A stretch of DNA of 64,000 bases from Dehalogenimonas sp. 4OHTPN (GTDB lineage: Bacteria; Chloroflexota; Dehalococcoidia; Dehalococcoidales; Dehalococcoidaceae), in contig NZ_CP159307.1 in the NCBI RefSeq assembly GCF_040448695.1, positions 1,488,001 to 1,552,000 on the forward strand, given 5' to 3'. Below are positions 3,736 to 52,820 of the stretch, piece after piece; positions within the stretch are counted from its first letter, which is position 1, and every line of letters starts with the position of its first letter. The notes under the pieces are model-generated. The model made no database searches and was not told the origin of the DNA. It saw nothing but the letters and a program-made list of their open reading frames with translations. Position numbers and translations under genes: made by a program.

Positions 3736-3794
3736 GAGACAATCTGTCTTCATAAATATATTTTCCCGAGGGTACCAAAAACGACAATAGTCGC

Positions 3795-3826
3795 TTGACA
3801 GCCGCAATGAACACCCGTGCTATAAT
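3795..3826 (+). promoter_or_regulatory. Promoter of repeat copy A
   Basis: TTGACA (3795-3800) and TATAAT (3821-3826) with a 20-base spacer. The extended -10 (TGCTATAAT) can compensate for the long spacing. An imperfect dyad GAACACCCGTGC overlaps the spacer. The same arrangement, with 19-base spacers, recurs in copies B and C. Confidence 0.65.
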
Positions 3827-3834
3827 ATCCGCCT

Positions 3835-10502: not shown

Positions 10503-10510
10503 GGGCGGGT

Positions 10511-10541
10511 ATTATAGCACAGGTGTTCCTCGTTCTGTCAA
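10511..10541 (-). promoter_or_regulatory. Promoter of repeat copy B
   Basis: Minus strand: TTGACA (10541-10536), 19-base spacer, TATAAT (10516-10511) with extended GTGC. The spacer contains GGAACACCTGTGC, an imperfect dyad also present in copies A and C. Confidence 0.7.
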
Positions 10542-10721
10542 GAGAGTTTTGTCGTTTTTGGTGTAGCCTGAAGATAAAAAAATAAAAAATACTTCTTAGA
10601 TTACAAAGATTGTTCCGTACCTTAGAGCAACCACAGAGAATTTGGTGGTGGAACCTAATTGCACAAACAGTAGAGACGAAGTGTCAAAGTTGTCTCGGTT
10701 AATTGGCTTGCTTTCTCGTTG

Positions 10722-51438: not shown

Positions 51439-51456
51439 GGCGCAAAATATTGCGCC
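51439..51456. promoter_or_regulatory. Dyad upstream of promoter copy C
   Basis: GGCGCAA AATA TTGCGCC, seven-base arms, ending 18 bases before the -35. Could be an operator or a terminator-like hairpin. Confidence 0.35.
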
Positions 51457-51459
51457 GAA

Positions 51460-51534
51460 AACGACAAAACTCGATTGACAGTACAGGGAACACTAGTGCT
51501 ATAATACCCGTATGAATATCAGCACAGGTGTACC
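51460..51534 (+). promoter_or_regulatory. Promoter copy C, upstream of the M29 aminopeptidase
   Basis: AAAACGACAAAACTC, TTGACA (51475-51480), 19-base spacer with GGAACACTAGTGC, TATAAT (51500-51505). About 87% identical to copy B over 53 bases. A reversed copy of the box (GCACAGGTGTACC) follows at 51522-51534, so the site may bind a regulator on both sides of the start point. Confidence 0.65.
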
Positions 51535-51607
51535 ACAACTGCGGCGCCGCTCCTCCTCGTCCATCTTCGCCGCAGCGAATCGTTTCAATCGTTTTTTATA
51601 TCAATAA
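51512..51607 (+). CDS. 31-codon leaderless leader ORF
   Basis: MNISTGVPQLRRRSSSSIFA and on to LYQ, stop TAA. The A of the ATG is 7 bases after the -10, at the expected start point. Its CTGCGGCG and CGCCGCAG segments can form a stem. Together these features suggest an attenuator or leader peptide, but no regulatory amino-acid run other than Arg3/Ser4 is visible. May be chance. Confidence 0.35.
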   Translation: MNISTGVPQLRRRSSSSIFAAANRFNRFLYQ

Positions 51608-51713
51608 CGCGTCACACAAACGCACAGCCCGCGACGCACTTGACCGGAATACCTTGCTTCAACCCCCCGGGGGGACTAGAATATCTTCCATATAGAATTA
51701 TAAGGAGAATATC

Positions 51714-52820
51714 ATGGCCGACCCCCGCATCCAGAAACTGGCCGAGCTTCTAGTCAAGTATTCCACCAAAATCAAGGACGGCGACAAGGTGGTGATCAAC
51801 GCCCCGGCGGCCGCCCTGCCGCTGACCCGGGCTATCTACCTGGAGGTTTTGAAGGCCGGCGGCCTGCCGTTTATCCTGCAGCGCGGTGACTTCGAGGACC
51901 TGCTTTACCGCCACGGCTCGGACGAGCAGCTCCAGTATGTCCACCAGCCGCAGCGCTATGTCGCCGAGGAGTACGACGCCCGATTCGCCATCCTGGCTGA
52001 CGACAATACGAAGAAGTTGTCCACGATCGCCCCGGAAAAGATAGTCCTCTTCGACCGGGCGCGCTCCGGTCTGATGAAGACGATGATGAAACGTTCCGCC
52101 GCCGGCGAGTTGAACTGGGTGGTAGCCCCCTTCCCCACCGCCGCCATGGCCCAGGACGCTGAAATGAGCCTGGAAGAATACGAAGACTTCGTCTACGGCG
52201 CCTGCATGCCAGACCTCTCCGATCCTATCGGTTACTGGAAGAAGCAGAGCGACCGGCTGCAGAAGGTAGTCGACTGGCTGAAAGGCCGCAGGAGCGTCCA
52301 CATCACCGGCCCGGAGACTGACCTGAAACTGTCCATCAAAGGCCGCAAGTTTATCAAGTGCGACGGCGAGAACAACATGCCCGACGGCGAGGTCTTCACC
52401 GGCCCGGTGGAGGACTCTGCCAACGGCCACGTCTACTTCTCCTACCCCGCCATCGAGAGCGGGCGGGAGGTCACCGGCGTCAGGCTGTGGTTCGAGAACG
52501 GCAAGGTAGTAAAAGCTACCGCGGAGAAAAACGAGGGATTCCTGTTAAAGACCCTCGATACCGACGAGGGGTCCCGGCGGTTGGGAGAGTTCGCTATCGG
52601 CACCAACGAAGGCATCACCAAATTCACCGGCGAGATCCTCTTCGATGAAAAGATCGGCGGCAGCTTCCACCTGGCGCTCGGCGCCGGCTACCCGGAAACG
52701 GGATCGGTCAATGAATCAGCCATTCACTGGGATATGGTCTGCGACCTGCGGCAGGGCGGGCAGATCACCGTTGACGGCGACCTGCTGTACAAGGACGGCA
52801 GGTTCGTTATCGATTTTTAA
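51714..52820 (+). CDS. M29-family aminopeptidase
   Basis: 368 aa thermophilic-type metalloaminopeptidase. Metal ligand region: EDSANGHVYFSYPA, 'AIGTNEGITKFTGEILFDEK' with acidic ligands, then 'GSFHLALGAGYPETG' and 'SAIHWDMVCDL'. Strong AAGGAGAA ribosome site. Transcription probably starts at promoter copy C, about 200 bases upstream. Confidence 0.94.
   Translation: MADPRIQKLAELLVKYSTKIKDGDKVVINAPAAALPLTRAIYLEVLKAGGLPFILQRGDFEDLLYRHGSDEQLQYVHQPQRYVAEEYDARFAILADDNTKKLSTIAPEKIVLFDRARSGLMKTMMKRSAAGELNWVVAPFPTAAMAQDAEMSLEEYEDFVYGACMPDLSDPIGYWKKQSDRLQKVVDWLKGRRSVHITGPETDLKLSIKGRKFIKCDGENNMPDGEVFTGPVEDSANGHVYFSYPAIESGREVTGVRLWFENGKVVKATAEKNEGFLLKTLDTDEGSRRLGEFAIGTNEGITKFTGEILFDEKIGGSFHLALGAGYPETGSVNESAIHWDMVCDLRQGGQITVDGDLLYKDGRFVIDF

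Follow-up and report, generated by a model that had tools for sequence, protein, structure and literature searches.

A MITE-like repeat family in Dehalogenimonas that carries promoters under probable SOS control

The sequence at positions 51439-51607 of the window (the 64,000-nucleotide stretch of Dehalogenimonas DNA analysed here) belongs to a repeat family with 29 copies in the 1.75 Mb genome of the same organism (G000). The original prediction of a recurring promoter joined to a leaderless mini-ORF was correct as an observation and caught a small part of this wider family. We would class the family as new, a MITE-like repeat that brings its own promoter, with SOS control as deduced from its operators. 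In the explanation that we consider probable, it is a dispersed, non-autonomous, MITE-like intergenic element carrying a strong promoter with LexA-type dyads, which would be switched on by DNA damage.

Layout of the element and its reading frames

In its intact form the element would run from a left box through a strong sigma-70 promoter to a body and a right end that are both composed of repeated TTCGTTTC/GAAACGAA motifs; a few copies have a putative leaderless terminase-small-like gene inside. The consensus order is an AAAATAT margin, AAAAACGACAAAACTCGC, TTGACA, a spacer of 19-20 nt ending in GAACACnnGTGC, and TATAAT; a body of ~107 nt with inverted TTCGTTTC/GAAACGAA motifs follows in most copies at a variable distance downstream of the promoter. 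The reverse complement of the right end, AAAAACGAYTGAAACGAYTCGC, is like the left box AAAAACGACAAAACTCGC by eye, a likeness unscored against chance.

The copy under study begins with a GGCGCAAAATATTGCGCC palindrome with an A+T-rich AAAATAT margin (51439-51456, no strand assigned), a possible UP element. In most copies AAAATAT precedes the left box, and conservation in the G007 ortholog of this copy climbs from that point onwards. The left box itself (GAAAACGACAAAACTCG, 51457-51473, plus strand), delimited by an alignment of 20 copies and by one of all copies in G000, G007 and G003, is a species-specific end motif. As had been predicted, TTGACA (51475-51480), a 19-nt spacer and TATAAT (51500-51505) make up a putative sigma-70-type promoter (51475-51505, plus strand), with an extended -10 TGC and with GGAACACTAGTGC at 51487-51499 inside the spacer. 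A LexA-box-like dyad (O1, GGAACACTAGTGCTA, 51487-51501, plus strand, core GAAC-N4-GTGC at 51488-51499) lies over the extended -10 and is near-invariant among copies. The reversed box of the original prediction is a second, inverted LexA-box-like dyad (O2, AGCACAGGTGTACC, 51521-51534, minus strand), which matches the reverse complement of the spacer of another copy at 13 of 14 positions. Such a second inverted dyad (AGCACAnnTGTACC, at +14 to +23) is enriched over shuffles: 8 of the 29 G000 copies have it and 23 of 39 in G003, where ~0.5 would be expected. The ~107-nt body match is absent from this copy and the right-end motif is present (GAATCGTTTCAATCGTTTTTTATA, 51577-51600, plus strand), its reverse complement again resembling the left box. 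Downstream lies a gene for an M29-family aminopeptidase (51714-52820, plus strand; Pfam PF02073, E 1.3e-31). Between the element and this gene, at 51663-51692, we observed a CCCCCCGGGGGG palindrome with a TAGAAT box after it, for the most part retained in the G007 ortholog; a promoter belonging to the M29 gene itself may lie at about 51680-51692.

Two other functions were considered for these sequences. Control of the MerR type, suggested by the long spacer, was rejected by eye because the dyad sits against the -10 box and not mid-spacer. A structured RNA leader was also rejected, since conserved base pairing was not found in the body alignments: alifold gave no conserved structure on 48 bodies (a subset of 17 sequences gave 5 pairs, -0.85 kcal/mol), and an Rfam search of the window returned zero matches. 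The inverted repeats are able to form hairpins in single copies.

The ATG at 51512, on the predicted start point, does open a frame of 31 codons (51512-51607, plus strand), as claimed. That this frame is a real peptide served by the promoter, as a leaderless small gene, is extremely unlikely, even though the position of its ATG, and the enrichment of start codons at +7 to +10 after the -10 box (17 of 29 copies, an offset count made in G000 and G007 only), speak for it. The frame extends to 43 codons in the sister species, where 4 of the codon changes are non-synonymous and 3 synonymous; the frame of 89 codons in the other copy is shortened to 22 there. Across orthologous copies the lengths run 31/43, 89/22, 52/27 and 18/32 codons, stops are unconserved and codon changes are not mainly synonymous, so that the frame is not kept in orthologs of the target copy and probably represents no functional gene; a Pfam search of the ORFs gave no match. 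The mini-ORF starts with MNISTxVP, like the start of a terminase-small-like protein at another locus (L082), but this match may only mirror the operator, because the same stretch encodes O2. We regard the mini-ORF as probably the remnant of a terminase-small-like gene that was leaderless. Downstream of three copies are leaderless proteins that have a PGNxNA-HG motif; two of them match PHROG profiles of the terminase small subunit (E 7e-5 and 3.5e-6) and the third does so weakly, and terminase-small-like frames are retained in 2 of 3 ortholog pairs. A terminase-large-like gene comes after the terminase-small-like unit in G000, G007, G003 and G005, and genes for a portal and a major head protein lie ~10 kb away in G000. 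These phage-like genes of G000 (portal, major head protein, terminase large, terminase-small-like) occupy 613-625 kb of contig C1 (L217, L218), outside the window, as two units ~10 kb apart with the promoter element at the head of each, and may be a domesticated phage or a gene transfer agent.

Copy number, insertion and inheritance

A DNA search found ~20 copies at E < 1e-3 in the window's genome, and a search with a model built on the 61-nt module found 29, with E from 1.6e-18 to 2.1e-9. This is the genome-wide motif search by which the original prediction proposed to be judged, and its outcome disposes of the case that the module has no other matches. GGAACACTAGTGC alone is not significant (2 matches with up to 2 mismatches against 0.9 expected). 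Two further copies lie in the window: one at 3773-3830 (plus strand, ~324 nt upstream of ruvA) and one at 10507-10563 (minus strand, ~316 nt upstream of valS), the latter holding the 89-codon frame. The target module is 85.7% identical to the second over 56 nt (10506-10561, minus strand, E 2e-13), close to the ~87% predicted, and 78.9% identical to the first (3775-3831, E 2e-7). The suggestion that the promoter module is the shared element holds in that it is a repeated, common unit and in that the part directly downstream varies between copies; that the promoter alone is the whole element is unsupported, because most copies share the ~107-nt body or the right-end motif further downstream.

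By the same 61-nt model there are 30 copies in G007, 43 in G003 and 41 in G004, and 0-5 in the other four congeners. G005 carries ~40 copies of a version of its own, which has the palindrome AAACAACCGGTTGTTT. In G033, a more distantly related genome, there are 37 weaker matches, which form a separate family with a different body and the same layout, partly at contig ends. A pattern scan of a genome collection, possibly omitting records close to the window's own genome, returned six contigs from one Chloroflexi MAG (the G033 family) and three Clostridia contigs with apparently unrelated promoters. A genuine-looking element of this genus's type was also seen on a 3.1-kb contig filed under Desulfobacteraceae (CAIVVZ010000582.1, L228), which may be mis-binned. 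A phage-borne promoter was rejected as an origin, there being no exact match to the promoter pattern in viral contigs.

The element separates leuD and leuB in four genomes (G000, G007, G003 and G004), and the two genes adjoin without it in seven relatives (G001, G002, G005, G006 and, in the sister genus, G008-G010). Because leuD and leuB abut in relatives that lack the element, its presence there is an insertion. One G007 copy is also absent at the matching G000 site, although in this presence/absence pair, the one inspected closely, the junctions are messy and no target-site duplication is definable. By similarity of their flanks, nearly all G000 copies have orthologs in G007, and in G003 an orthologous flank exists for about a dozen; the target module and its G007 ortholog are identical at 55 of 58 positions, as counted from the alignment. 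The family shows three of the features looked for in a MITE: many dispersed copies (29 in the genome), no transposase of its own (copies are of a few hundred bp, and the sole conserved ORF in some is terminase-small-like), and both filled and empty sites at leuD-leuB. Its mobility would presumably be driven by a transposase.

The left-box sequence differs by species even at shared sites. ACGACA is followed by AA in 20 of 29 G000 and 23 of 30 G007 copies and by CG in 28 of 39 G003 copies. Eight G000/G003 pairs were compared, and in each of them CG is present in the G003 copy and absent from the G000 copy. The reverse types occur in one G007/G003 pair, and the leuB copy of G004 is of mixed type. 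One reading is that the left boxes have co-evolved with a DNA-binding protein; an alternative is repeated insertion or exchange between copies. Drift would give such differences too, and they are, with the retention of copies at orthologous sites, what might be expected if these were similar ordinary promoters of a plain regulon, under one host transcription factor and with no mobile element. We consider this very unlikely, given that copies have in common a ~107-nt body reaching far beyond the promoter, that the leuD-leuB site is empty in relatives, that one G007 copy is absent from its matching G000 site, and that G033 has repeats that share this layout.

LexA-like operators and downstream genes

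LexA is a DNA-damage switch. The window's genome encodes one LexA above the cut-off (PF01726, 57.8 bits), with GAACACTTGTTC upstream of its gene, a sequence that O1 repeats except for GTGC in place of GTTC and variable middle bases. Looking upstream of the best LexA match in 11 genomes (G000 and ten others), a LexA box resembling GAACANNTGTTC (GAACA-N2-NGTNC, with up to 2 departures) was found in nine, among them G033, whose GAACAAACGTTC is, strictly, borderline; G013 has a weaker GCACAATTGTTT. Exact GAACANNTGTTC occurs at two places only in the G000 genome, neither of them at an element copy. The recA genes of G005 and G006 carry GAACACTTGTGT, which is close to O1, and in G003 the element itself lies upstream of recA. 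Because of the resemblance of the lexA-upstream boxes to O1, together with these recA sites, LexA control of the element promoters is likely. With one dyad over the extended -10 and another just past the start point, LexA or a close relative would block RNA polymerase at both, so that DNA damage, as we propose, would switch the promoter on.

It is possible, if rather unlikely, that O1 and O2 of this same dispersed promoter element serve some regulator other than LexA, such as a dedicated repressor. Both dyads share a departure from the lexA operator, one half-site being GTGC/GCAC and not GTTC/GAAC, and most downstream genes are housekeeping genes, as this alternative would have it. In their GAAC-N4-GT core and in their spacing the dyads nevertheless fit the lexA operator of the same genome, GAACACTTGTGT is found at recA in two congeners, and uvrA, ruvA, ligA and sbcC are among the targets, all of which argues for LexA.

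Other LexA-type sites were observed as well. A perfect GAACAGGTGTTC box lies just past the window (G000:C1 1557538-1557549, L220) between divergent genes, one of which encodes a membrane protein that looks by eye like an NhaA-type antiporter. Some congeners have a second LexA-like protein (G002, L242; G006, L243), and in G002 a TAACATTTGTTA-like site lies upstream of its gene.

With the ORFs read and counted by eye, ~22 of the 29 copies face a nearby gene, and a gene upstream of which the element lands would gain its promoter, by predicted read-through. The targets include uvrA, ruvA, ligA, sbcC, valS, leuB, argF and the phage-like terminase pair. Family searches, made on N-terminal fragments that are unable to reach full-length family cut-offs, support valS, ruvA, sbcC, ligA, uvrA, leuB, aroC, accC, argF and pheS, and also serine hydroxymethyltransferase, class IV aminotransferase, ketoacyl synthase, a phosphorylase-family protein, formate-tetrahydrofolate ligase, the M29 peptidase and a HisS/HisZ-like protein. 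Many of these downstream genes are not SOS genes elsewhere.

Relation to known systems and significance

Correia/NEMIS elements of Neisseria are MITEs with a sigma-70-like promoter that are often found just upstream of genes, and one of them can drive uvrB (PMC10969869, PMC2229807). The present elements, likened to them by description and not by sequence, are also small, dispersed, non-autonomous, promoter-bearing repeats near genes, but differ in the LexA-like dyad that overlaps the promoter and in a body with many short inverted motifs. REPIN/RAYT repeat populations are long-lived, mostly vertically inherited and built on inverted motifs (PMC8049555), and all of this is shared by the population described here; a REPIN, however, consists of REP sequences in a pair and owes its movement to a RAYT enzyme, whereas here the promoter belongs to the unit. 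As in LexA/SOS promoters, a dyad lies over the -10 box and a second near the start point, and both are similar to the operator at lexA in these genomes, but the GTGC half-site, the location of the sites within a repeat element and the many non-repair targets set them apart. We found no description of the repeat family in the open-access literature searched, subscription journals lying outside its scope.

A wider picture, speculative and unlikely as it stands, would have the repeat family spread SOS-controlled promoters through the genus, joining genes for repair and for core metabolism with a domesticated unit for phage packaging in a single regulon. A DNA-binding protein acting in trans, which could conceivably be the terminase-small-like protein encoded in some copies, would meanwhile co-evolve with dozens of sites and thereby leave each species with a motif version of its own, at shared sites as well. 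Promoter-bearing repeats are already known; LexA-like operators on elements upstream of dozens of genes would, if true, directly exemplify how a mobile element can build a regulon, and the species-specific versions at shared sites make such regulon-building testable by genome comparison.
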